Source: Desulfobacterales bacterium
GTDB taxonomy: Bacteria; Desulfobacterota; Desulfobacteria; Desulfobacterales; Desulfosalsimonadaceae
Assembly: GCA_018335195.1 (NCBI GenBank)
Contig: JAGXKN010000016.1
Span: forward strand, 1 to 64,000
Direction of reading: 5' to 3'
Length of the DNA stretch: 64,000 nucleotides
How positions within the stretch are numbered: the first letter of the stretch is position 1; every line of letters starts with the position of its first letter. The position numbers were made by a program, and so were the translations under genes. Under the pieces are notes generated by a model. It did not search any database and was not told the origin of the DNA. It saw only the letters and a program-made list of their open reading frames with translations. This document shows positions 21,203 through 49,953 of this stretch, in pieces.

Positions 21203-21210
21203 TCCCAAAG

Positions 21211-22598: not shown

Positions 22599-22667
22599 GT
22601 GAGGGGTCAAGTCTACGCTTGACTCTTTAAGAAAACTAAAGAGTCAAGCGTAGACTTGACCCCTCAC
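22599..22667. repeat. GGGGTCAAGTCTACGCTTGACTCTTTA palindromic element (copy C)
   Basis: Arms of 31 bases at 22599-22629 and 22637-22667 are essentially perfect complements around a 7-base loop. It ends 6 bases from the stop of the WecG-STAS gene (22674). It is the best-conserved of the three copies within 1.5 kb. Confidence 0.9.
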
Positions 22668-22673
22668 TCTCAC

Positions 22674-24248
22674 TTACCGGATCTGTTGCCGGAGCGTTCT
22701 TTCAGCCTCCCGGATATTGTCGGTAAAGACAAACAACCGGTCCAGCCGCAGGATCTGAAACATCTGGTGCACGTACTCCCGTACGCCGCAAAGTATGCAG
22801 CTTCGGCCGTGTCTTGCCACATGGCGCTGGATCTTGACAAAGAAGTGCAGGCCCGCGCTGTCGATAAAATCGATGCCTTTTAAGTTGAACACCGCGTTTC
22901 TCCGGCCGAGGGTTTCAAACAGGGCATCGATGTCGATATCCAGGATGCGCGTGGCGTCAAGGTCGCCGTACATGTGAAAAATCGCCGCATTGCCCCGAAT
23001 CAGGGCCAGGTAGTAAAAAGAAGCCGAATCCGCCCTTTGGGAAAGCACGCCGATGACATCATCAATACTCTGGTACATGCTTTTTTCAAAAAAATCCAGG
23101 GTTCGGCTCAGCCTGAGAAACCGGTAGACCGGTGGCCGTAGGCCGATCATGAAAATTTCCCGATCCATTGCCGCAGCCGTCCGCCACAGGCTCAACAGCA
23201 GGCCCAGTCCCGAGGAATCCATGAAATTCACTTTAGAGAAATCAAGCACGACCTTCGCGGAATGTTCAATGATGTGCTTGAGTTCGGTCTTGATTTCCTC
23301 GGCTACCGAGGCATCCAGTGGATCGGGCAATGTAATGGTTTTCAATGCCACGCCCTGGCCGGGGCGGGACATGCGGCTATTAATGGAAGGATTCGGGGAT
23401 CGGAGCCCGAAGAGCTTGTAGGTAAGCTGCTGGTACTGCTGGTAAAGCACCAGGGGGAAAACGGTAAACCCGAACGTCACGGGGCTGTAAAAAAAGCGCA
23501 TCCATATCCGGCGGCGAAATTCGGATTTCGTATTCTCGAGGCCAGTTATGCGTTGAACCCTGCCGCGGGCATGGCTGTGCCCGGCCGCGCGGATGAACTC
23601 CTGCGTGCCGGTTATCACAAGGGTGAGCGGAACATAGAGCCGATGGCGGTTTTTTTCATACCAAGCAGCAGAGGCCGGATCCCGTAAATCCAGAATCAGG
23701 AAATCAGCGGCTGTGGCGGTGATTTTTTGCAGCAGCATGGTGCGGGGGCCCGGGTTTTCAGTTTTCCGGGATGCCGGGGCGGCCGTGCCGGCAATGGCAA
23801 GGTCCGGATGGGTCGGCTCGATGATTTGAGCGGCCCGGTGCATGGATCTGGATGCATTTTCCAGCAGGAAGAGTGTTTTGCGGTTTTTTTCCGCGCTGCG
23901 GAAAAATTCGCGGAAAAATGCAACATCGGAAAACCGCTGTTTGAGCCGGGTGCCGACAACCCGGGCCGCCCATGCCACGGGCCGCCCTACCGGGATCATC
24001 AGGTCCGACTGCCGCAGGATGTTGATCAATTCCTCGTTGGCCCCGGCTTTGCTGCGAATTCCCGCATAAAGCCGGGTCACGGTGTCCGTGTTCACCACCA
24101 CTGCGGTTCGTGGCCGACCGTCGAGCTCATAGTCTTCGGCCATTGTCAGGATCCGGCTGATGGTTTCTTCCAGATCGAGGTTGTCCACGGGGATGCCGAG
24201 TATGACAGCGGTTTCCGGAGTCAGGGTTTTCAAAATCTCACCATGCAA
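22674..24248 (-). CDS. WecG/TagA-like (GT26) domain fused to two STAS domains
   Basis: A 524-residue fusion. Residues about 15-245 follow the WecG/TagA/CpsF glycosyltransferase layout (VVNTDTVTRLYAG, then SDLMIPVGRPVAW, then a segment like GLENTKSEFRRR). The catalytic DGxG position reads VGRP at 87-90, so the transferase is probably inactive. A hydrophobic stretch (about 251-280) follows. Two STAS domains occupy about 299-400 and 415-515, with the serine motifs DSSGLG (344-349) and DSAGLH (463-468). STAS proteins are the targets of partner-switching kinases and phosphatases, and one such protein lies next door at 25279. The start is TTG with a stop just upstream, overlapping the uppP end by 11 bases, so the two are coupled. 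Confidence 0.72.
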   Translation of the reverse strand: MHGEILKTLTPETAVILGIPVDNLDLEETISRILTMAEDYELDGRPRTAVVVNTDTVTRLYAGIRSKAGANEELINILRQSDLMIPVGRPVAWAARVVGTRLKQRFSDVAFFREFFRSAEKNRKTLFLLENASRSMHRAAQIIEPTHPDLAIAGTAAPASRKTENPGPRTMLLQKITATAADFLILDLRDPASAAWYEKNRHRLYVPLTLVITGTQEFIRAAGHSHARGRVQRITGLENTKSEFRRRIWMRFFYSPVTFGFTVFPLVLYQQYQQLTYKLFGLRSPNPSINSRMSRPGQGVALKTITLPDPLDASVAEEIKTELKHIIEHSAKVVLDFSKVNFMDSSGLGLLLSLWRTAAAMDREIFMIGLRPPVYRFLRLSRTLDFFEKSMYQSIDDVIGVLSQRADSASFYYLALIRGNAAIFHMYGDLDATRILDIDIDALFETLGRRNAVFNLKGIDFIDSAGLHFFVKIQRHVARHGRSCILCGVREYVHQMFQILRLDRLFVFTDNIREAERTLRQQIR

Positions 24249-25053
24249 GCATCAGTACAATTCCGCCCACCGCCCAGCAGTAGGGAGCAAACAGCGAAAG
24301 ATGCCCTTTTTTCACCAGGTAGACCAGAAACGACAATGCCGCATACCCCACTGCTGCAGCGCAGACCGCACCGGCCAGGACTGCCGGACTTCCTGCACTT
24401 CCCGCAGAAGCGCTTTCCGGCAGGCCCACCAGGGCGGCGCCGAGAATCGCGGGTATGGAAAGCAGGAAAGAATACCTGGCCGCGGTTTCGCGATTTAACC
24501 CCAGGTACAGGGCCGCAGCAATGGTGGCACCGGAGCGGGATACACCGGGAATCACCGCCACGCCCTGGGCAATCCCGATCAAAACGGCGCGCATCAGGCT
24601 CAGGCCGGAAACATCTTTTCCGGTCCCGGTCTTGTACCGGGTAAACCACATCCATATGCCCGTGCCCACCAGCATGCCGCCCACCAGCAGCACCGAGGAA
24701 AACAGCACATCCGCGATTTTGTGAAAACACAGGCCGATAATGGCGGTGGGGACCGTTCCGGCCAAAATCATGAGAGCAAGCCAGACGTCTGCAGGGGGAT
24801 TTTTGAGGCCTGCTTTCCGGTTCCGGCCGAACACCCACTTTGCAAGTGCTGTGATCATGCGGATCAAGTCATGGTAAAAATATATGCAAACCGCCGCCAG
24901 GGTACCGAGGTGCACGGCCACGTCAAAGATCAGCTCGGGCTGGCGCAGTCCGAACAAATGCTGGAACAGCACCAAGTGCCCCGAGCTGCTGACCGGCAGA
25001 AATTCTGTTAAACCCTGGATAACGCCCAGGGCGATGGCCTGTATAATTGTCAT
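24238..25053 (-). CDS. uppP: Undecaprenyl-diphosphatase UppP (BacA)
   Basis: A 271-residue polytopic membrane enzyme that dephosphorylates undecaprenyl pyrophosphate and so recycles the lipid carrier for peptidoglycan and surface glycans. The two signature motifs are TEFLPVSSSGH (16-26) and PGVSRSGAT near 175. About seven or eight hydrophobic helices fit the family. Its 3' end overlaps the WecG-STAS gene, whose family acts on undecaprenyl-linked sugars, giving a plausible shared substrate. Confidence 0.93.
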   Translation of the reverse strand: MTIIQAIALGVIQGLTEFLPVSSSGHLVLFQHLFGLRQPELIFDVAVHLGTLAAVCIYFYHDLIRMITALAKWVFGRNRKAGLKNPPADVWLALMILAGTVPTAIIGLCFHKIADVLFSSVLLVGGMLVGTGIWMWFTRYKTGTGKDVSGLSLMRAVLIGIAQGVAVIPGVSRSGATIAAALYLGLNRETAARYSFLLSIPAILGAALVGLPESASAGSAGSPAVLAGAVCAAAVGYAALSFLVYLVKKGHLSLFAPYCWAVGGIVLMLAW

Positions 25054-25154
25054 AAAAAAATTTTTTCCAATAATTAACCTGTCATGTTTGCAGGCGCATA
25101 TTATTTGAGAGAAACGTGAAAATGCAAATTTTTTTACTATCAGTCTTTGATCAG

Positions 25155-25275
25155 TCTGTAAAAAGTCTTGAAACCGTTATAATTGCCGGCCAATAAAATG
25201 ATAAGTTTTTGATTTTACTTAACCACTTAATCACTTAAAACTTAACACTGCCTGTAAAAAGGACTTTTTACAGGC
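25155..25275. repeat. TGTAAAAAG...GGACTTTTTACAGGC interspersed repeat (copy 1)
   Basis: This 121-base copy runs from tgtaaaaagtcttgaaacc through caataaaatgataag and cacttaaaacttaac to the hairpin cctgtaaaaaggactttttacagg. The hairpin lies 4 bases from the stop of the signalling gene at 25279. Other copies: 28017, 37142, 60310 (truncated), 60504, 61582. Confidence 0.9.
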
Positions 25276-25278
25276 AAC

Positions 25279-26919
25279 TCAGTCTTTAAACAGCAGAATT
25301 TTAAATCGGACACAGTTTTCTCCGGTCTTGTCGTCACGGTGGTATGCAATGTCATCGACCAGTTGTGAAACCAGGTAACAGCCCATTCCGCCTTCCTGGG
25401 TTCCGTCAAGTACCGGCGGCCGGATGTTGTTGGGATCAAATGCCTTGCCCGTATCCCGGAATTCCACTTCGATACGGTTTTTAAAGGCTTCTGCGGTGAT
25501 TTTGATGGTGTATCCGGGCTGACTGTCCAGGCCGTGCTTGACGATGTTGGCCACGAGTTCGGTGGCCGCCACTTCCACCTGGGAAAGCCGGAGCGGGTCA
25601 AGCTGGCCGAAGGCGTTCTGCTCGCAGAAGCCGCGGACAAAGGCCCGGACTTTTTTGAGATTGTCCAGGTGGCTGTCGATTTCCAGTTGCTGCCGGTTCG
25701 TGACCTGCAGTGCGGCTGACGGGGAATCGTCAATTTTTGCGCCCACACAGGTAAAGTCGTCGATAAATACCTGCGTCCCGGTAAAGGCGGTGACATCCCG
25801 GTAGATGGCCCGGATCAGTTCATCTGCCGGCATGGCGGCATTTTTTTCAACGAACCGCACCAGCCGGTCTTCGCCGTATAACTCCCGGTTTTGGTCCGCG
25901 GCCTCGGTAAGGCCGTCTGAGTAGAACAAAAACAGGTCGCCCGGGGCAAAAGGCACGGTAAATTGCTGGAAAGGTGCGGTTTCGGGAAATCCCAGGGGCA
26001 TGTTCGCGCCCTTTAAAAGCACCACGCTGTTTTTCGCGCGCTTATAGTGGATTGTCCTTACATGCCCGCAGTCCACATAATCAAACCGGTAGCGGTTCAG
26101 GTCAAAACGCCCGTAGCAGAAAGTGACAAAGGTTTCGAGCTCCTTCATCTGCTCGATCATGTTGTCATGAACCCCTTTTACGATCTGTTCGGGCTCGGGC
26201 ACTTCCTTGCGGCCCGGAAGGGAGCGGCCATGGTTTAACACCCGCAGGAATTCGCTTTTCAATGCCGCACCCATAAATGCGGCCATGAGTCCCTTGCCCA
26301 TGATGTCTGCCACAACAATGTCGAGCAACCCGGGAGCGGGGCGGATAAAGTCGTAAAAATCCCCGTCGATTTTTTCAGAAGGGATGGAGAGTTGGGCCAC
26401 ATGCATTTCCGGCAGATCCCGGGGTGGCCGTCCCAGCAGGAGCGTGCGCTGGATCTGGGATGCCACGAAAATCTGGTGCTGCCGGGCCTGTTCGAGCTTT
26501 TTTTCCGCTGCCTTCAGCCGGCTGGCCTGCCGGTATGCGTCCACGGACTTGTCCACCAGGGCGGCCACCTGGCCCGGGTTAAACGGTTTGGTCACATAAT
26601 CGAGGGCACCCTGCTTCATGGCCTCCACCGCGTTTGCGATGTTTTCGCTGGCCGTGAGCATCAGCGGCGCCATGTCCGGAAAATGCTCGCGGATATAGCG
26701 AAGGCAGTACAGGCCGTCACCTTCCGGCATCCGCAGGTCGATTACCGCGGATGCCACCTTGTCTGACAAACGGCTCACGGTTTCTTTGCCGGTCCTGGCG
26801 CAGATGACGTTATATCCGCTTTTTTCCAGTTTCCGGCGCAAAAGAAGCCGTGTGCCGGAATCATCGTCGGCCACCAGCACCCAGGGCGCCTCGTCTTCGT
26901 TATTCTCCAGGCTGTCCAT
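25279..26919 (-). CDS. Response regulator with SpoIIE-type PP2C phosphatase and HATPase (anti-sigma kinase) domains
   Basis: A 546-residue three-domain signalling protein. The receiver (about 12-125) has D61 as phosphate acceptor and K111 in VTKPF. A coiled coil (130-160) leads to a PP2C/SpoIIE phosphatase (about 170-395) with metal sites GDFYDF (186-191), DIMGKG (205-210), SDGLTEA (334-340) and DDF (387-389). The C-terminus (about 410-546) is an RsbW-type HATPase with N box ELVANIVKHG (from 454), DTGKAFD and GGMGCYL. So one protein holds both the kinase and the phosphatase of a partner switch. The STAS target could be the neighbour at 22674. No sensor kinase is visible. The ATG at 26919 starts at a typical receiver N-terminus. 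Confidence 0.85.
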   Translation of the reverse strand: MDSLENNEDEAPWVLVADDDSGTRLLLRRKLEKSGYNVICARTGKETVSRLSDKVASAVIDLRMPEGDGLYCLRYIREHFPDMAPLMLTASENIANAVEAMKQGALDYVTKPFNPGQVAALVDKSVDAYRQASRLKAAEKKLEQARQHQIFVASQIQRTLLLGRPPRDLPEMHVAQLSIPSEKIDGDFYDFIRPAPGLLDIVVADIMGKGLMAAFMGAALKSEFLRVLNHGRSLPGRKEVPEPEQIVKGVHDNMIEQMKELETFVTFCYGRFDLNRYRFDYVDCGHVRTIHYKRAKNSVVLLKGANMPLGFPETAPFQQFTVPFAPGDLFLFYSDGLTEAADQNRELYGEDRLVRFVEKNAAMPADELIRAIYRDVTAFTGTQVFIDDFTCVGAKIDDSPSAALQVTNRQQLEIDSHLDNLKKVRAFVRGFCEQNAFGQLDPLRLSQVEVAATELVANIVKHGLDSQPGYTIKITAEAFKNRIEVEFRDTGKAFDPNNIRPPVLDGTQEGGMGCYLVSQLVDDIAYHRDDKTGENCVRFKILLFKD

Positions 26920-27070: not shown

Positions 27071-27892
27071 CTAGCGGGATAAAGAGTCAATGGATTTGTG
27101 TCCGGGCGGGTTTTCCAGGATTTCGGTTTTGAGGCGCTCCAGTACCGCCTTTCCTTCCAATGAGAACTCCGGGTGATTCGACAGGAAATCGCCAAGGACG
27201 GCGGGTTTTGGCCTATGCGAGCCGGAAACGGCGTTCTCCAGCAGCCCGAGAGTGCCTGCCCCCTGGTTGTATATGATCAGCGGATTGCCGAAAGCCGGTG
27301 AACCCGCCTCGTCGGTAGTGGGCCGGCCGAGGATCAAAAAGCCCTGCAGTTTGGATGCGGCCGGGGCCACGCGCAAATCGAGAAGTTCGGCAAAAAGTGT
27401 CAATGCTTCGGCCGCGGCCTCGGGCTGGTTCGCCTCCAGGGCCTGCGCCCCGTCTTCAAAGATGGATTCGATATCCGCCCGGTTGTAGCGCAGGTCCAAC
27501 TGCATCACGCACCGACTGTGGAGCTTCATGACCGTGTCCGCCCCCCTGGCCCTGACCACGTCCTTGTCGTTTAATATGCGGATGGCGTTTCGGATGCTGA
27601 GCATTTCCTTTAAAAACGGATTTCGCCGCAGCAGCACATCGGGCAGCGTCGTGCGGTACAGGGGAAGTTCATTGTCCAGCACGATGATTTCCGGGGGCTC
27701 GGCGCTGAAATCCCGGCTGAACAGTTCCATGTCCCGTTCGACCCGGGATTCATACCCGGCTGTCTCCAGCAGACCGCGTACGGCCTCCCTGTCAATGCGC
27801 ACCCCGTCTTCGGCCGGCTCCAGCGACCCCAGCGCCCGCCGGGCCATCCGGTCAATCTCGATTTTCTTCCTCAGATTTTCTTTGAATGACAT
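27071..27892 (-). CDS. Hypothetical protein, mostly alpha-helical
   Basis: A 273-residue soluble protein with no domain I recognise. It has a basic N-terminal helix (KENLRKKIEIDRMARRAL), a Leu-rich middle (about 85-190) and a Gly/Ala-containing stretch FLILGRPTTDEAGSPAFGNPLIIYNQG. No signal peptide or membrane helix is visible. I prefer the ATG at 27892 (AGGCAGGGA before it) to the GTG at 27925. A perfect 18-base palindrome lies 47 bases upstream. Confidence 0.65.
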   Translation of the reverse strand: MSFKENLRKKIEIDRMARRALGSLEPAEDGVRIDREAVRGLLETAGYESRVERDMELFSRDFSAEPPEIIVLDNELPLYRTTLPDVLLRRNPFLKEMLSIRNAIRILNDKDVVRARGADTVMKLHSRCVMQLDLRYNRADIESIFEDGAQALEANQPEAAAEALTLFAELLDLRVAPAASKLQGFLILGRPTTDEAGSPAFGNPLIIYNQGAGTLGLLENAVSGSHRPKPAVLGDFLSNHPEFSLEGKAVLERLKTEILENPPGHKSIDSLSR

Positions 27893-27938
27893 TCCCTGCC
27901 TGCCCACTTGTCCGATTTTTAACACCTAATGGTTGATG

Positions 27939-28016: not shown

Positions 28017-28135
28017 CGTAAAAAGCCCTGAAACCATTATAATCGCCAGACAATAAAATGATAAGTTTCTGATTTTACATAACCACTTAATCACTTAAAA
28101 CTTAACACTGCCTGTAAAAAGGACTTTTTACAGGC
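28017..28135. repeat. TGTAAAAAG...GGACTTTTTACAGGC interspersed repeat (copy 2)
   Basis: A 119-base copy beginning cgtaaaaagccctgaaacc and ending with the cctgtaaaaaggactttttacagg hairpin, 24 bases from the stop of the CoA ligase gene at 28159. The hairpin could also serve as its terminator. Confidence 0.9.
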
Positions 28136-28158: not shown

Positions 28159-29889
28159 TTAATCCTGCATCCGCATCGTATCACCCCCCGGCAGCCCGAG
28201 TTCCCAGGCCCGCAGCACCCTGCGCAGCAGTTTGCCGGTGCGGGTTTTGGGCAGGGTTTCCACAAAAACCAGTTCCTGCACCAGCAGGTCCGCGGAGAGG
28301 TTGCCCTTTAAAAACGCCCGGATCTCATAGTTCAGGCGGTTGGACGCCGTATATCCCTTTTTCAGGGTCACGTAGGCTTTCAGGTAGGAAACCCCTTTTC
28401 CCGGTTCCTTGCCCTTGGAAATCACTGCCGCCTCTGCCACCGCCGGGTGCATGGATAGTACCTGTTCGATTTCAAACGGCCCGATCACCTTGTCGCCGCC
28501 GGCCTTGAGCAGATCGTCGTTTCTGCCCTGGTGGTAGAAATACCCTTCCTCGTCCGCAACGGCAATATCGCCCGTGACAAACCATCCGTTGCGGAAGTAC
28601 CTGTGGAATCTGTCCGGATCCTGCCAGATTTCGGACATGAGTCCGGGCCATCCGGGCTTCAGGGCCAGCTCTCCCAGCGAGAGGGGGGGCAGGGGCGCGC
28701 CGTTTTCATCGAGCACGGCCGCCTCGATGCCGGGCAGGGGTTTGCCCATGGAGCCGGGCTTGATGTCCGTGCTCGGAAAGTTGGCAATGCAGATCATTCC
28801 GGTTTCCGTCATCCACCAGTTGTCATGCGGCGTGCAATGCAGCTTGTCCCGGGTCCAGTAGAACAGTTCCGGCAGAAGCGGGGCGCCCACCGAGCAGATA
28901 TGGCGGAGCGCGGAGAGATCGTAGCGCGTGGGCAGATCGTCGCCGGCCTCCATTAAGTCCCGGAGCACCCGCGGCGTGGTATACCAAGTGGTCACCCGGT
29001 TGGTTTCCAGGGCCCGGTACCAGTTGGCCGCCGTAAAATGCCCGCCCATCACGAAGCTGGTCACCCCGCACAGCCAGGGTGCGAATGCCCCGTACACGGT
29101 TCCGGTGACCCAGGCGGGGTCCGCATCCGTCCAGAGCACCGTATCCGGCTTGAAATCGAGAACCCAGCGGGCGGATGCCAGGATGCCGGTCATGTCGGTA
29201 TGGGTGTGCACGATCCCCTTGGGCGGCCGGGTGGAACCGGAGGTGTATATTAAATACAAGGGCGTTTTTCCGGAAAACGGCGCCGCCGGGTAATCATCCG
29301 GCATTTCTTCGGCCTGCCCCGCGATGACTTGCTCGATGTCAAACACGTTCGGGGCCGGTCCGCACACCAGCAGGATGTGCTGCAGATGGGCCACGAAGTC
29401 AAACGGGATCTTTTCCACCAGGTCCGGGTGGGTCAAAATCGCCCTGGGGGAGATGTTTTCCAGGCGGATTTCAAGCTCATAAAAATTGGACGAGGCAAAT
29501 ACCGGGCAGAACATCACGCCCATGCGGGCGGCCGCGGTCATTGCAAAATAGGTCTCCGGGCAGGGCGGAAGAAACAGCAGCAGCCGGTCGCCTTTGACAA
29601 AACCGTACCGGGCCAGCAGATTGGCCCATTGGGCCGATTTCCGGCGCATCTGCGCAAACGTATAAGTCTGCCGGCCTTCGAAGGATTCAAACGACAGGGC
29701 CGGGTGCCCGGCCCTGTCCGGATCTGCCGCCCATTTGTCCAGGGATTCGGCGATTATGTTCATCTCCGTGCTGCCGGACCATGAAAATTCGGCTTCCACG
29801 TCCTTCCAGGAAAAATTTTTCCGGGTCTGGTCATAATCGGCCAGGTTCGCGGTATCCGGGGCTGTGGCCGGGATTCTCGCCTTGATCAT
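28159..29889 (-). CDS. AMP-forming acyl-CoA synthetase (acetyl/medium-chain type)
   Basis: A 576-residue cytoplasmic ligase. Motifs are the P-loop YTSGSTRPPKG near 213-223, WWMTETG near 363, the TGD near 440, GRNDDLLKAGGDKVIGPFEIE near 455-475 and the catalytic-lysine motif LPKTRTGK near 548-555. It has an acetyl-CoA-synthetase-like N-terminal extension (residues 1-60). The substrate is a short- or medium-chain acid, not fixed. It overlaps the upstream deacetylase gene by 4 bases (ATGA), so the two are coupled. The lysine in PKTRTGK is the residue that is acetylated in such enzymes. Confidence 0.86.
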   Translation of the reverse strand: MIKARIPATAPDTANLADYDQTRKNFSWKDVEAEFSWSGSTEMNIIAESLDKWAADPDRAGHPALSFESFEGRQTYTFAQMRRKSAQWANLLARYGFVKGDRLLLFLPPCPETYFAMTAAARMGVMFCPVFASSNFYELEIRLENISPRAILTHPDLVEKIPFDFVAHLQHILLVCGPAPNVFDIEQVIAGQAEEMPDDYPAAPFSGKTPLYLIYTSGSTRPPKGIVHTHTDMTGILASARWVLDFKPDTVLWTDADPAWVTGTVYGAFAPWLCGVTSFVMGGHFTAANWYRALETNRVTTWYTTPRVLRDLMEAGDDLPTRYDLSALRHICSVGAPLLPELFYWTRDKLHCTPHDNWWMTETGMICIANFPSTDIKPGSMGKPLPGIEAAVLDENGAPLPPLSLGELALKPGWPGLMSEIWQDPDRFHRYFRNGWFVTGDIAVADEEGYFYHQGRNDDLLKAGGDKVIGPFEIEQVLSMHPAVAEAAVISKGKEPGKGVSYLKAYVTLKKGYTASNRLNYEIRAFLKGNLSADLLVQELVFVETLPKTRTGKLLRRVLRAWELGLPGGDTMRMQD

Positions 29890-30929
29890 GAAATCACTCC
29901 GTAGGGTCGATGAATTTCTTCAATCTGCCGGACCAGGTCAGCCGCCCCGGCTGAAGGGCTGAAAGCGGATTCGGTTTCCGTGCACCCGGATCCGGTCAAC
30001 TCCCGGAGCAACTCCCGGATGCAGCGGGTCAGGGCAAGCGGCTCATATCCGCCTTCCAGGGAGAAAAACAGGGGTATGGGCCGGCCCGCGGAATGCGAGG
30101 CACTCAGAATCAGCCGGGTTATCCGGGCATACAGGCTTTCGGAAAACCGGCATCTGCCGATGGGATCGTCGCAGTGGGCGTCAAATCCCGCGGCCACCAT
30201 GATCATGTCCGGGGCAAAGCCCCGGATTGCCGGCAGCAGCGTCCGGGAATAGAGGTATAACATGTCGTCATCTGTAAAATCCCGGGACAGGGGGATGTTC
30301 ATGGTGTAGCCCTCGCCCCGGCCGGTGCCGATCTGCCCGGGTTCGCCGCTGTAGGGATAGAGCATCAGGTCATGGGTGGAATAGTAATATACCCGGTCGT
30401 CATGGTAAAAAATGTCGTTTAATCCGTTTCCGTGGTGCACGTCCCAGTCCAGGATGAATATGCGCCCGGCACCGTAGTTCGCCTGGGCGTATCTGACCGC
30501 TACCGCGATATTGTTGAACACGCAGAACCCGCTGGAGCGTTCCGGCAGGGCGTGATGGCCGGGCGGCCGCACCAGGGCGAAAAAGGCGTCGCACTGGTCT
30601 GTCAGCAGCATGTCCACCCCCTGCAGGCAGGCGCCTGCGGCCAGCCAGGCCACCAAGTAGCTTCTGGCGCTGACCGGGGTGTCGGGCGCCAGGTTGGTCA
30701 TGCGCTGTTCCGCGGTTTTCAGGATTTTCCGGATATGGGCCGGTGTGTGTACCCGTTCCACGTCTTCCAGTGCCGCGGGCTGTGGCTGAACCGGCTGGAC
30801 GCGCCCTGCAAACTCCCGGTCAACCATCCGGTAAAGCTCCTGGATCCGCCTGGGTTGCTCGGGGTGAAAATGCCCGGTCTTGTGCTCGGCAAACCGGTCA
30901 TCCCTTGTCACCCCGACCCGCATCCCCAT
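29886..30929 (-). CDS. Histone-deacetylase-family (AcuC-like) deacetylase
   Basis: A 347-residue zinc-dependent class I/II-type amidohydrolase. The catalytic His pair is in RPPGHHA (about 122-128), zinc ligands are in DWDVHHGNG (about 160-168), and the third is in GFDAH near 244. In bacteria AcuC proteins remove acetyl groups from acetyl-CoA synthetase lysines. The gene neighbours are two such synthetases and a GNAT acetyltransferase fusion, so that role is likely here. Polyamine or acetoin substrates are alternatives. An AGAAGG ribosome-binding site supports the start at 30929. Confidence 0.84.
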   Translation of the reverse strand: MGMRVGVTRDDRFAEHKTGHFHPEQPRRIQELYRMVDREFAGRVQPVQPQPAALEDVERVHTPAHIRKILKTAEQRMTNLAPDTPVSARSYLVAWLAAGACLQGVDMLLTDQCDAFFALVRPPGHHALPERSSGFCVFNNIAVAVRYAQANYGAGRIFILDWDVHHGNGLNDIFYHDDRVYYYSTHDLMLYPYSGEPGQIGTGRGEGYTMNIPLSRDFTDDDMLYLYSRTLLPAIRGFAPDMIMVAAGFDAHCDDPIGRCRFSESLYARITRLILSASHSAGRPIPLFFSLEGGYEPLALTRCIRELLRELTGSGCTETESAFSPSAGAADLVRQIEEIHRPYGVIS

Positions 30930-30963
30930 CTATATCCTTCTCCTTGCCTTTTCCCGCCGGTTT

Positions 30964-30990
30964 CGGGCGGACACATAGGTCCGCCCCTAC
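30964..30990. repeat. GGGCGGACACACAGGTCCGCCCCTAC-family element
   Basis: A single copy (cgggcggacacataggtccgcccctac) lies between the deacetylase gene and acsA, followed by a taaaacttaaaac tract. Confidence 0.85.
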
Positions 30991-31024
30991 GCTTTTATCT
31001 TAAAACTTAAAACTTAAAACTATT

Positions 31025-32992
<1,968 letters not shown>

Positions 32993-33004
32993 AAAAACCC
33001 TCCT

Positions 33005-34915
33005 TTACTTCTTGGAGTTAGCGTTTGTCGGGGCGTCATGCGCTTCCACGGGTTCATCAAATCGGGAACTGAGAACGATGATGTCTTCATCCCGGTTTTT
33101 ATGCATCTTATAGGGCAGTTTTTCAAAAAGGCGGATCATTCCCCTGTTTCCGGGTTCAGTGTATGCTACCAGCCCGTCAATTTCATTTTCCCTGGCAGCC
33201 TCGGCCAGCTTGTGGATCATGGTTTCGGCGATGCCCTTGCCCTGCCACTGCTTGCTCACGGAAAAAGCCACTTCCGCCATGTTTTTCTGCGGCTCCAGCA
33301 TGTAGGCGCCGATGCCGATGACCGAGCCGAAACCGAATTCCCCGGTCAGGGCCACCAGCGTGAGGTTGCGCACGTAGTCGGTTTCAATGATGGACTTGAC
33401 ATCATCGCGCAAAAACCGGGTTTTTTCGTAGAAGAACCGGGCGACCACGTCCTGCTTGTCGAGATTGTAGAAGTGCTCCTGGATGCGCCGGTCGTCGACC
33501 GGCTTGGCCGGCCGGAAGGTCACGGACTGGCCTTCAATTTTCCGGATTTCCTCCAGCCCGGCCGGGTAGACGCTTCGAAGCGATTCCGAGAGCTGGCGGG
33601 AGCGGGTCATCAGGCCCAGGTCCTTGGCGCGTTCAAACAGCTCATTGCGGTAATCCGGATGGGCGAGGCTGATCATGGCCGTGGCCCGTTCCTGGAGGTT
33701 TTTGCCGAACAGGTTGACCGCCCCGTATTCGCTGACCACGTAGGAGACGTCCGTCCTGGGCACGACCACGCCGCCGCTTTTGATTTCCGGCACAATGCGG
33801 CTGATGCTGCCGTCCACGGAAGTCGAGGGGATCAGTAGGATCGACTTGCCGTTCGGGCACGCGGAAGAGCCGCGCATGAAATCGAGCATGCTCGAGACAC
33901 CGGCAAAATAGTTATGCGGCAGGGCATCCACTGCCGCCTGGCCGCTTAAGTCCATTTCCATGACCATGTTAATCGAGACCATTTTGTTGTGCTGGCCGAT
34001 GATGCCCGGGTTGTTGACGTAATCCGAGGGATAGAACTCGATTGACGGGTTGTCATGCACGAATTCGTATAAATAGGGCGATCCCACCGCATTGGTGGCC
34101 ACGATCTTGCCGTCGTTGACTCCTTTGTACTTGTTGGTGATCACGCCCATGGACACCAGGTCCATGATCCCGTCGATGACAAACTGGGTGTGTACGCCCA
34201 GGTCGTTTTTCTCTGACAGGGCCAGCAGGATGGCCTTGGGCGTGGCCCCGAGCCCGAGCTGGAAGGTGGAGCCGTCTTCGATGACATTGGCCACCAGCCG
34301 GGCGATCCGGTGGGCGGACTCAAACTCGGGCAGTTGTTCAATGGTCAGCAGGGGCTCATCCTTTTCCACCACCAGGTCCACGTCATTAACGTGAATGAAG
34401 CTGTGGCCCAGCACCCGCGGCATCTGCTCATTGACCTGTACGATCACCAGGTCTGCCGACTGGATGGCTGCCGGCCCGACATCCACGGAAATCCCCAGGC
34501 TCATCCATCCAAAGTCGTCGGGCGGGGATGCTTGTACCAGGGCGGCGTTAATGGGCAAATAGCGCTTTTTAAACAGATTGGGCACGGCCGAGAGATTCAT
34601 AGGGGTGATAAACGGCCGGTTGGCCTCCATGTGCTTGGCGCTGGCCGAGCCCTGGTAGATGCTGCGGATGCTGAACTGCTCGAAATTGCCCTGGGTGGCC
34701 AGGCGGGTGAGCGGGGAATTTTGGAGGCTCATCAGGCGAACGACTTCCAAGTCGCTTAAATGAGGCGCTTTGTTTACCAAAATATTGACCAGATGCTGCG
34801 GTTCACCGCAGGAAGAGCCGACAAAGACACGCTGCCCCGATTTGAGGCGTTTCATGGCTTGTTCTGCGCTGCATTGCTTCTGGAGGTATTCATCCGGCCA
34901 GTATTTCGCGGTCAT
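33005..34915 (-). CDS. Acetyl-CoA hydrolase/CoA-transferase fused to a GNAT acetyltransferase
   Basis: A 636-residue fusion. Residues 1 to about 450 follow the acetyl-CoA hydrolase/4-hydroxybutyrate CoA-transferase family (QLGLGATPKAIL, GVITNKYKG, SPYLYEF, YVVSEYGAVNLFG). The position where these enzymes carry the catalytic Glu (usually HTEM or HSEM) reads HTQF, with Gln244. Residues about 466-620 are a GNAT domain with the acetyl-CoA loop QWQGKGIA (556-563). So the protein binds CoA esters in one half and can acetylate an amine in the other. acsA is next, 12 bases downstream. I infer it acetylates AcsA in response to CoA-ester level. The alternative is a working CoA-transferase with a regulatory GNAT. 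Confidence 0.8.
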   Translation of the reverse strand: MTAKYWPDEYLQKQCSAEQAMKRLKSGQRVFVGSSCGEPQHLVNILVNKAPHLSDLEVVRLMSLQNSPLTRLATQGNFEQFSIRSIYQGSASAKHMEANRPFITPMNLSAVPNLFKKRYLPINAALVQASPPDDFGWMSLGISVDVGPAAIQSADLVIVQVNEQMPRVLGHSFIHVNDVDLVVEKDEPLLTIEQLPEFESAHRIARLVANVIEDGSTFQLGLGATPKAILLALSEKNDLGVHTQFVIDGIMDLVSMGVITNKYKGVNDGKIVATNAVGSPYLYEFVHDNPSIEFYPSDYVNNPGIIGQHNKMVSINMVMEMDLSGQAAVDALPHNYFAGVSSMLDFMRGSSACPNGKSILLIPSTSVDGSISRIVPEIKSGGVVVPRTDVSYVVSEYGAVNLFGKNLQERATAMISLAHPDYRNELFERAKDLGLMTRSRQLSESLRSVYPAGLEEIRKIEGQSVTFRPAKPVDDRRIQEHFYNLDKQDVVARFFYEKTRFLRDDVKSIIETDYVRNLTLVALTGEFGFGSVIGIGAYMLEPQKNMAEVAFSVSKQWQGKGIAETMIHKLAEAARENEIDGLVAYTEPGNRGMIRLFEKLPYKMHKNRDEDIIVLSSRFDEPVEAHDAPTNANSKK

Positions 34916-48199: not shown

Positions 48200-49498
48200 C
48201 TATGTATTGCCCTCCTTGTTGTTGTCGATTTCCCGGAGCCTGAAACAATCACTGCGTTTGGCCCGGCCGCGAACCACGTCTTCGGCAAAGGTGCGGCAGT
48301 CCGGCGCCCCGCAGACCCCGCAATCGACTCCCGGCAGCAGCGACACCAGATTCTCGATTTCCTGCATTTGGTCAATAGTCAGCGCCCGCCGCTGATCCGG
48401 GTAATAATCGGTAAAATCCGAAGGCCGGATATTGGCAAAAAACCAGCCGCGGTCGTAGAGCCGCTGGAGTTTGTACGGGGGCAGTCGCCGGTTGACACCG
48501 AATGTGCGCACAAGTTTTTGTACGGTCTGCTTGGCCATATGACGGTCCACGGCGGTCAGCGGTCCGCCGAGACATCCTTGCGGGCAAACCCGCAGTTCAA
48601 TGTAATTCATTTCATCAAAAACGCCCATCTCGATTTTTTCGAGGCAGTTGCGGACCTCTCTTAACCCGGAAACCGCAAGCAGGCCCTCATCGCGCAGGGG
48701 ATTGATCTCCCCGCCGGACTTGCTCCACATGGGTCCCCGGGCATTGGGGATGTTGGCAAACGGGTCGGTATCGTAAATATCGAGCTCCTTTTCCCGGATG
48801 TTTTCCACGTGCTTGCAAATCTCCGGATAGACGGCATTAATGCCGATGGTGCGGTCCACGGATCCAATCTCGTCTTTGAGCACCATCTCCTGGGACAGCG
48901 CCTTGGAGGGGCAGGGGGTGATGTGGAAGATCTCGATCTCGGAGCCGGTGATGTTATGTATGGACTGCAGTTTTTTACGCACGTCATCGGCGATCATGAC
49001 CGCCGGCCGGCGGATCGGCAGGATATTGTCCAACAGCGTCGGGTGCTTGAGCGCGATGAGCCGGATCACCACCGGGCATATGGGGGAGATCAGCGGAAAC
49101 GGGGCCTGTCGGGTCTCCCGGTTCTGCGCGATAAACCGCTCCACTGCGAATTGGAACATTTCCAGGTGAAAGGAAAGATCCACCACGTGGTCAAAGCCCA
49201 TTTTCTTGACCGCCCGGAGCACATCGCACGGCATGGTATCCGGGAACTGGGAATAAAGCGCCGGCGAGATAATTGCCGCATTGGTTTTGTCCTTGTCGAG
49301 AGGGAATCGGGATTCGACGTTGGACTGGATCACCCCTTCCGGGCATACCCGGAGGCACTCCCCGCACCCGATGCACAGATCCGGGTGGTGGACGGCCTTG
49401 TGGCCGCGGATGCGGATGGCCCGGGTGGGGCAGGCTTTTACGCAGTGTGCGCAGCCCGTGCATTTATCAAGCTGGAATGTTACATATTCCCCGATCAT
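48200..49498 (-). CDS. [FeFe]-hydrogenase-like sensor protein with ferredoxin and C-terminal 4Fe-4S domains (HydS/HsfB-type)
   Basis: A 432-residue protein. An N-terminal 2x[4Fe-4S] ferredoxin (CTGCAHCVKACP, CIGCGECLRVCP) leads into the H-cluster fold. The motifs are ISPICPVV (C141), ITPCPSKA (C196) and RVCPQGCLGG (C305, C309). All four H-cluster cysteine ligands remain, but the proton-relay cysteine of TSCCPxW is Ile140 and the flanking residues differ, so turnover is unlikely. The C-terminus (392-418) has an Fe4 motif CGVCGAPDC. HydS proteins are thought to sense H2 and signal to a kinase or phosphatase, which fits the neighbouring HATPase and DRTGG genes. It overlaps the next HATPase gene by 4 bases. 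Confidence 0.85.
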   Translation of the reverse strand: MIGEYVTFQLDKCTGCAHCVKACPTRAIRIRGHKAVHHPDLCIGCGECLRVCPEGVIQSNVESRFPLDKDKTNAAIISPALYSQFPDTMPCDVLRAVKKMGFDHVVDLSFHLEMFQFAVERFIAQNRETRQAPFPLISPICPVVIRLIALKHPTLLDNILPIRRPAVMIADDVRKKLQSIHNITGSEIEIFHITPCPSKALSQEMVLKDEIGSVDRTIGINAVYPEICKHVENIREKELDIYDTDPFANIPNARGPMWSKSGGEINPLRDEGLLAVSGLREVRNCLEKIEMGVFDEMNYIELRVCPQGCLGGPLTAVDRHMAKQTVQKLVRTFGVNRRLPPYKLQRLYDRGWFFANIRPSDFTDYYPDQRRALTIDQMQEIENLVSLLPGVDCGVCGAPDCRTFAEDVVRGRAKRSDCFRLREIDNNKEGNT

Positions 49499-49953
49499 GC
49501 GCTTTGCCCTGTTTTATTTTCCCGGGACCCTGGGGACAGCGAAAAACGCATCACCACCCTGGTGCCCTGTCCCTTTTCGGATTCAATGTCCAAACGGTCG
49601 GAATGGGTCTCCATGTTCGGCAGTCCCATGCCGGCGCCAAAGCCCATTTCCCGGTACTCCTCGCTGGCCGTGGAAAACCCTTTTTCCATGGCTTTCGCGA
49701 TATCTTCAATTCCGGGCCCTTCGTCAGAGATGTCCAGGATGATTTTATCGGTGTTGACCTCTATGCGGAAGCTTCCGTTTTCCCCGTGCATCACCGCGTT
49801 CATTTCCCCTTCATATGCGCAGATGGCCACGCGCCGGATCAGCGCGGACTCGATGCCGATCTGCTTGAGCATGTTTTGCACGGATATGGATGCCTCACCT
49901 GCATGGATGAAATCCCGGCTTTTGAGCTGGAAGCTTTTTTTTAGCGCCGCCAT
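49495..49953 (-). CDS. Anti-sigma-type HATPase (RsbW-like)
   Basis: A 152-residue GHKL ATPase of the anti-sigma kinase type. N box: VAICAYEGEMNAVMHG. G1: DISDEGPGIED. G2: FGAGMGLPNMETHSD. The C-terminus GQGTRVVMRFSL completes the fold. It starts on the base after the DRTGG gene ends and overlaps the HydS start by 4 bases. It would phosphorylate or bind a partner in response to the sensor, but no STAS partner is visible here. Confidence 0.82.
   Translation of the reverse strand: MAALKKSFQLKSRDFIHAGEASISVQNMLKQIGIESALIRRVAICAYEGEMNAVMHGENGSFRIEVNTDKIILDISDEGPGIEDIAKAMEKGFSTASEEYREMGFGAGMGLPNMETHSDRLDIESEKGQGTRVVMRFSLSPGSRENKTGQSA

Follow-up and report, generated by a model that had tools for sequence, protein, structure and literature searches.

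Tandem STAS domains on a degenerate WecG-like protein as candidate substrates of an HsbR/CrsR-type kinase/phosphatase in a Desulfobacterales bacterium

The locus and its three proteins

In this study, we have analyzed a 64,000-nucleotide stretch of DNA from a Desulfobacterales bacterium (NCBI GenBank assembly GCA_018335195.1, contig JAGXKN010000016.1, positions 1 to 64,000; the window), in which three minus-strand genes probably form a real kinase/phosphatase-STAS switch, with a suggested tie to lipid recycling. In order of transcription, they encode a protein with receiver (REC), PP2C, and HATPase domains (the kinase/phosphatase); UppP; and a protein in which a WecG/TagA-like part precedes two STAS domains (WecG-STAS-STAS) (Table 1). 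A chance or frame artefact is ruled out because the three frames are kept in relatives with low ratios of nonsynonymous to synonymous substitution (dN/dS); against L049, the locus of the closest relative, the values are 0.13 for uppP, 0.16 for the kinase/phosphatase gene, and 0.11 to 0.30 for the parts of the WecG-STAS-STAS gene, pairs with saturated synonymous sites being disregarded. Searches of the window's own genome (G000) covered 3.29 Mb in 99 contigs; the window's genus and its sister genus are labeled g1 and g104.

Table 1. Features of the switch locus and its upstream neighborhood
Feature	Positions	Strand	Basis or context
WecG/TagA-like-STAS-STAS gene	22674-24248	-	Pfam, TagA alignment, alignment A1, dN/dS
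Parts of the WecG-STAS-STAS protein	residues ~8-218, degenerate WecG/TagA-like; ~219-292, hydrophobic tail; ~296-400, STAS1 (Ser345); ~405-515, STAS2 (Ser464)
uppP/bacA, undecaprenyl-diphosphate phosphatase, 271 aa	24238-25053	-	Pfam PF02673, motifs
Insertion, 139 bp (one repeat copy counted)	25140-25278		between kinase/phosphatase gene and uppP; no counterpart at the site in L049
REC-PP2C(SpoIIE)-HATPase_c_2 kinase/phosphatase gene, HsbR/CrsR-type, 546 aa	25279-26919	-	Pfam, motifs, orthologues
Orphan gene, 284 aa, between ACS-like gene and switch genes in part of the genus	27071-27925	-	L049, L051, L052, L053
Acetyl-CoA cluster (ACS-like, histone-deacetylase family, ACS, CoA-transferase-GNAT)	28159-34915	-	directly upstream of switch genes

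The original prediction for this locus had held that a single protein contains both the kinase and the phosphatase needed to switch STAS proteins, and its domains and catalytic motifs bear this out at the level of sequence. Pfam assigns PF00072, PF07228 (138 bits), and PF13581 (80 bits) to the kinase/phosphatase, which thus combines receiver, PP2C, and HATPase/anti-sigma-type domains as expected of the HsbR/CrsR type; the NCBIfam RssB model scores it at 98 bits against a cut-off of 700. Orthologues are present in 20 of 36 genomes of the family (E value, 1e-40) and in 38 of the 291 genomes of an order sample (E value, 1e-90). Of the 20 orthologues in the family, 18 were aligned, the incomplete ones of G318 and G321 being set aside. 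All 18 have an intact receiver Asp, PP2C Asp motifs, and HATPase Asn box, and 17 have the G1-box Asp, which is replaced by Asn in G212. A 152-residue HATPase protein is also encoded at 49495-49953, adjoining an iron-hydrogenase-like gene, with no STAS gene close by in a genome-wide search.

The WecG/TagA-like part of the third protein is recognizable but degenerate. It matches PF03808 over residues 81 to 218 (62 bits; cut-off, 27.4) and the TagA structures 5wb4 and 7mpk (E value, about 8e-9), and it scores under the NCBIfam cut-offs of TIGR00696 and TarA. Alignment with TagA places Val87 at the position of TagA Asp65 and Ser193/Ala194 at those of Gln167/Glu168; Val51, aligned by way of L025, replaces Thr37. 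The window protein retains Asn53 and Arg105, which align with TagA Asn39 and Arg83; no confident counterparts in the window's clade could be assigned to the TagA tail arginines 214, 221, and 224. In TagA, Asp65 is the proposed general base, and the Thr37Ala and Asp65Ala substitutions are reported to lower activity more than any others (PMC6493773).

These replacements are shared across the clade. In alignment A1 (24 rows, 21 of which reach the catalytic columns; L065, L059, and L060 stop short of the Asp65 column), the Asp65 equivalent and the Gln-Glu pair are replaced in 11 of 11 rows from g1 and g104, and Thr37 is replaced in 10 of 11 (L067 has Thr), while all four residues are intact in the 10 other relatives. 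In the tree, a branch supported at 100/100 sets the degenerate group apart; L060 (G202) was left out of the tree because unread bases fuse a methyltransferase-like start to its WecG tail; L062, which is partial, and L028, which has the WecG part only and adjoins a transposase-like gene, were left unaligned. Judged by these residues, the WecG part is very probably no longer capable of sugar transfer. Nevertheless, its dN/dS (0.23 against L049; 0.26 and 0.27 for a further two close pairs) indicates purifying selection and thus retention of the domain for some function.

Two PF01740 stretches (109 bits, whole protein) make up the remainder of the protein. As the original prediction had stated, their serine motifs are intact: Ser345 (DSSG) is invariant in all 24 rows of A1, and Ser464 (DSAG) is invariant in the 23 rows that reach it. 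STAS1 has a dN/dS of 0.11 against L049, and the STAS part gave 0.14 to 0.17 in two other close pairs. The kinase/phosphatase is therefore accompanied by a genetically linked STAS protein with a conserved serine, the second property expected of an HsbR/CrsR-type system.

UppP is the sole PF02673 match found in the genome (264 bits), and it carries QGLTEFLPVSSSGH at residue 13 and PGVSRSGAT at residue 169, motifs that we take to be UppP/BacA signatures; NCBIfam UppP models match it below their cut-offs (e.g., TIGR00753, 210 versus 217.5). Its stop codon ends at 24238, and the start codon of WecG-STAS-STAS may be TTG 24248, which gives an 11-bp overlap, or TTG 24233, 4 bp downstream, the choice between the two not being proven. 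Since either start overlaps or adjoins the uppP stop, the translational coupling of the two genes that had been predicted is plausible.

The kinase/phosphatase gene had likewise been described as a neighbor of this pair; it is present, but it lies upstream of uppP in transcription and is separated from it by 225 bp. The corresponding gap in L049 is 80 bp, and we discount the longer gap as evidence against an operon because 139 bp of it is an insertion that has no counterpart there. The insertion is flanked by 9-bp direct repeats, AAAGACTGA, at 25279-25287 and 25140-25148 and holds a palindrome with 13-nucleotide arms at 25249-25276, of which look-alikes with two to three mismatches occur at 28109, 37324, 60597, and 61767 of the window; the direct repeats and the dispersed palindromes indicate that it is likely to be a small dispersed mobile element. 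A terminator-like hairpin inside the insertion and a promoter-like site ahead of uppP, both predicted, could still part the kinase/phosphatase gene from uppP transcriptionally in this genome. Just past the WecG-STAS-STAS gene, at 22599-22667, there is a perfect 31-bp inverted repeat, with related copies at 21210, 21686, and 21726.

Conservation of the gene pair and the older partner of the kinase/phosphatase

Comparison with relatives did not yield the result that would have counted against the original prediction, a neighborhood that is not conserved. The order kinase/phosphatase-uppP-WecG-STAS-STAS is found in 8 of 9 genomes of g1, and in the ninth (G159) the contig ends within uppP. In 5 of 6 g104 genomes, WecG-STAS-STAS comes immediately after the kinase/phosphatase gene, with no uppP between; one of the five, G197, has only the first 76 residues of WecG-STAS-STAS, at a contig end, and in the sixth, G254, neither gene was found. 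In G320 (g140), the kinase/phosphatase gene and uppP run up to the end of a contig, and WecG-STAS-STAS, with an rfbB-like gene after it, starts at a different contig end, an arrangement that would fit the g1 gene order split across contigs; an rfbB-like gene also follows WecG-STAS-STAS in G226. The WecG-STAS-STAS and kinase/phosphatase trees agree at the genus level, g140 grouping with g104 and g1 standing beside them. Furthermore, a WecG-STAS match (E value, 1e-15) was found in 15 of the 36 family genomes, all 15 of which have the kinase/phosphatase, and in none of the 16 genomes that lack it, relatedness not being corrected for; one of the 15, G321, has a WecG-STAS of the intact type on another contig.

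The position of uppP is more variable: it accompanies both switch genes in g1, follows the kinase/phosphatase gene in G105 (g3) and G320, and lies outside the operon in g104, on another contig in five genomes. In the matched part, the proteins of G317, G197, and G254 (g104) are 38, 34, and 40% identical to that of the window, and the locus-based comparison of uppP in g104 was usable in two of six loci. An essential role for uppP in the unit is ruled out for g104 because the switch genes adjoin without it; in g1, uppP is probably a co-transcribed envelope gene.

Outside these groups, the kinase/phosphatase has a different partner. Thirty of the 38 matches in the order sample yielded loci, and in 18 of the 22 that fall outside g1, g3, g104, and g140, a lone STAS gene stands directly downstream on the same strand; because the STAS search profile included three STASs from g105, 3 of these 18 match by construction. 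Among the four exceptions, L145 and L154 lack a nearby STAS gene (range examined, about 1.5 kb), L148 extends no further than the kinase/phosphatase gene, and L151 has a STAS on the opposite strand. Three of the four g105 genomes have a lone STAS of 112 to 115 residues after the kinase/phosphatase gene, and the contig of the remaining one, G321, ends in that gene. It is this slot that WecG-STAS-STAS occupies in g104. Across the family, a clear lone STAS (E value, 2e-26 or better) is present in 16 of 36 genomes, comprising 15 of the 20 with the kinase/phosphatase and 1 of the 16 without; the other 5 of the 20 have no lone STAS or a weak, partial, or WecG-linked match.

The STAS tree drew on 12 unlinked loci and, for either WecG-linked domain, on 10 of the 24 rows of A1, with L137 (a WecG-STAS-STAS) and L151 omitted. 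It places the 12 unlinked STASs of the clade among those linked to the response regulator (RR-linked) and apart from the WecG-linked domains. Support for joining the unlinked STASs to their g105 counterparts is modest (82/70), and the tree carries a long-branch warning. An older lone-STAS partner whose unlinked orthologue is retained makes WecG-STAS-STAS look like a recruit into a pre-existing switch, and the kinase/phosphatase may now serve both proteins. In relatives (L118, L119, L121, and L123 to L128), the lone STAS adjoins a conserved orphan of about 500 residues or more, the frames being cut by locus ends; it gave no Pfam match above the cut-off in the two copies scanned. Beside the lone STAS of the window genome there is only an 87-residue frame (L109:6148-6411), whose start resembles the relatives' orphan by eye.

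Proteins with an intact active site suggest where the recruit came from. WecG-STAS-STAS matches (E value, 1e-20) occur in 7 of 146 genomes of an order sample and in 20 of 291 genomes of a class sample; the counts for the samples and the family take in G000 itself and incomplete matches (e.g., G074, G197, G202, G313, G317, and G320). Most intact-site relatives with scanned neighbors lie amid sugar-related genes: a PF02397 sugar transferase gene is directly upstream in L024, L058, L026, and L066; the gene follows a GT2 gene in L056; and in L023 it lies between nucleotidyl transferase and epimerase genes. In L057, it lies between sulfotransferase and sigma-54 activator genes, with a GT2 gene further up, and in L027, it follows a fructose-bisphosphatase gene. 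L025:4347-6950 encodes an 867-residue GT2-WecG-STAS-STAS fusion (WecG match, 202 bits), which is a good model of a STAS-controlled glycosyltransferase. In L058 (G161, from another family), separate REC-PP2C, HATPase, and STAS genes stand just upstream of an intact WecG-STAS-STAS.

What the switch may control

We consider it somewhat better than an even bet that the locus encodes a partner switch of the HsbR/CrsR type whose kinase/phosphatase has acquired an additional substrate, a STAS pair borne by a dead glycosyltransferase. The anatomy of the proteins and their conservation support the predicted union of a kinase and a phosphatase with STAS serines on a platform derived from a glycosyltransferase. 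It can be envisioned that a phosphodonor would set the state of the receiver; depending on that state, either the HATPase domain would phosphorylate Ser345 and Ser464 of WecG-STAS-STAS and also the conserved Ser of the unlinked lone STAS, or the PP2C domain would strip the phosphate. As the WecG part is under selection and the hydrophobic tail is kept, the two together may anchor the paired STAS domains to the membrane, and there one of their phospho-states would bind a cell envelope partner. The anatomy of the proteins, the conserved pairing of the genes, the loss of the aligned catalytic residues, the purifying selection, and the older lone-STAS partner are observed; phosphorylation, the direction of signaling, the membrane role, and the output are what we infer from them.

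Several observations weigh against this reading. The window genome has an unlinked lone STAS (G000:C75:39762-40109) that is 45 to 48% identical to the RR-linked STASs of g105, compared with 27 to 36% for the WecG-linked STAS domains. G105 has the order kinase/phosphatase-uppP-rfbB-like and has kept the lone STAS, and WecG-STAS-STAS was not found in it. The dN/dS of STAS2 against L049 (0.30, from few synonymous changes) is not below that of the WecG part. The tail, the sole basis of the membrane role, is only moderately hydrophobic (Kyte-Doolittle maximum, 1.29 over 19 residues), and structure prediction for two sequences gave a mean predicted local distance difference test score of 35 and was not used. 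Finally, the best solved-structure match of the kinase/phosphatase by sequence, the Pseudomonas response regulator 3eq2 (E value, 3e-24), covers the receiver and PP2C domains only.

Alternatively, the kinase/phosphatase might act on no STAS but its ancestral lone partner, today encoded at C75, with WecG-STAS-STAS and uppP as operon passengers; the output would then perhaps be the freeing of a sigma factor from the HATPase domain, in the manner reported for CrsR/RpoS, and the genome has four sigma-70 region 2 matches, of types not assigned. The lone STAS downstream in 18 of 22 loci, the clustering of the clade's 12 unlinked STASs among the RR-linked ones, and the 15-of-20 versus 1-of-16 distribution all speak for it. 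We nevertheless regard it as unlikely, although the most credible of the alternatives, as it leaves unexplained why WecG-STAS-STAS has stayed with the kinase/phosphatase in two genera, with serines kept and enzyme residues decayed, and why the two trees agree. The original prediction itself, that the switch controls undecaprenyl-phosphate supply through the action of WecG-STAS-STAS on UppP, draws on the location of uppP between the switch genes in 8 of 9 g1 genomes and after the kinase/phosphatase gene in G105 and G320, as well as on the finding of no second BacA gene in the genome. Its premise that a WecG-type enzyme uses the carrier recycled by UppP is not supported: the WecG part is dead by motif, with the catalytic Asp and Gln-Glu pair replaced in 11 of 11 clade rows, and no other WecG and no PF02397 transferase were found in the genome (E value, 0.001; other carrier users were not searched). 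The presence of uppP in the g1 operon stands in its favor, but in g104 the switch genes are together without uppP, which is on another contig in five genomes and encodes a protein only 34 to 40% identical to that of the window in the three genomes compared; the older partner of the kinase/phosphatase is a lone STAS; and no STAS control of undecaprenyl metabolism was found in the open literature. Without support for a working enzyme, and with uppP present in only some of the operons, we rate the carrier-supply model lower and consider it improbable. UppP is a possible target of the switch, the basis being operon membership.

The WecG part might still be an enzyme with altered residues, in which STAS phosphorylation gates sugar transfer. 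Purifying selection on the domain, the retained Asn53 and Arg105, and the rfbB-like sugar-nucleotide gene after WecG-STAS-STAS in G226 and G320 and after uppP in G105 are compatible with this; however, the equivalents of Asp65, Gln167, and Glu168 are gone in every clade row and that of Thr37 in all but one, and the corresponding Thr37Ala and Asp65Ala changes are the largest activity losses reported for TagA (PMC6493773), making this explanation very improbable. A more speculative extension, marginally less probable than the carrier-supply model, is that the dead glycosyltransferase sits at undecaprenyl-linked intermediates as a membrane-bound phospho-switch, such that the tandem STAS domains would gate the sole BacA-type UppP and make carrier recycling responsive to a signal.

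The upstream acetyl-CoA cluster, with its acetyl-CoA synthetase (ACS) and ACS-like genes, is kept wholly or partly in g1 and g104, and its position beside the kinase/phosphatase gene in both genera may reflect a link to acetyl-CoA metabolism; the cluster may point to control of acetyl-CoA synthesis by acetylation. The 284-residue orphan has no match in Pfam or NCBIfam and was not seen at L050, L064, or L102.

Comparison with known systems

Like HsbR-HsbA of Pseudomonas aeruginosa and CrsR-CrsA of Shewanella, in which a REC-PP2C-kinase protein is reported to act on a STAS protein and, for HsbR, to control its phosphorylation (PMC6482189), the window encodes a REC-PP2C-kinase protein and a STAS protein. 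The kinase/phosphatase orthologues outside the clade resemble HsbR/CrsR in having an adjoining lone STAS in 18 of 22 loci; the window differs in that its linked protein joins a degenerate WecG domain to a pair of STAS domains, and in g1 uppP lies between the two switch genes. The kinase/phosphatase also resembles Pseudomonas RssB (3eq2) in its receiver and PP2C domains, a match that leaves the HATPase domain uncovered.

The SypE domain order differs from that of the window's kinase/phosphatase. The proposed switch is otherwise reminiscent of SypE-SypA of Vibrio fischeri, in which a kinase/phosphatase response regulator reportedly controls the STAS protein SypA; SypA is required for polysaccharide-dependent biofilm, which it promotes by a route that was called unknown in 2015 (PMC4517449). 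Unlike the STAS pair described here, SypA is a single-domain STAS protein without a glycosyltransferase fusion, and a natural STAS-glycosyltransferase fusion offers a candidate kind of SypA target. No WecG/WecB-STAS or STAS-glycosyltransferase fusion switch was found in the open literature, most subscription journals lying outside its scope. If UppP were indeed the target, the result would be post-translational control of carrier recycling.

The N-terminal domain belongs with TagA/WecG (GT26) by its PF03808, 5wb4, and 7mpk matches, but four pocket residues are replaced, the C-terminal tail has diverged, and two STAS domains have been added. The WecG-STAS-STAS proteins of polysaccharide-type clusters in the same order share the full-length architecture (25 to 32% identity to that of the window) and keep the active site that the window's clade has lost. 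If the switch acts, the proteins in polysaccharide clusters would place the sugar transfer step, rather than transcription, directly under phospho-control, and the window's clade would represent an apparent next step, in which the enzyme residues have been lost and the switch platform has been retained.

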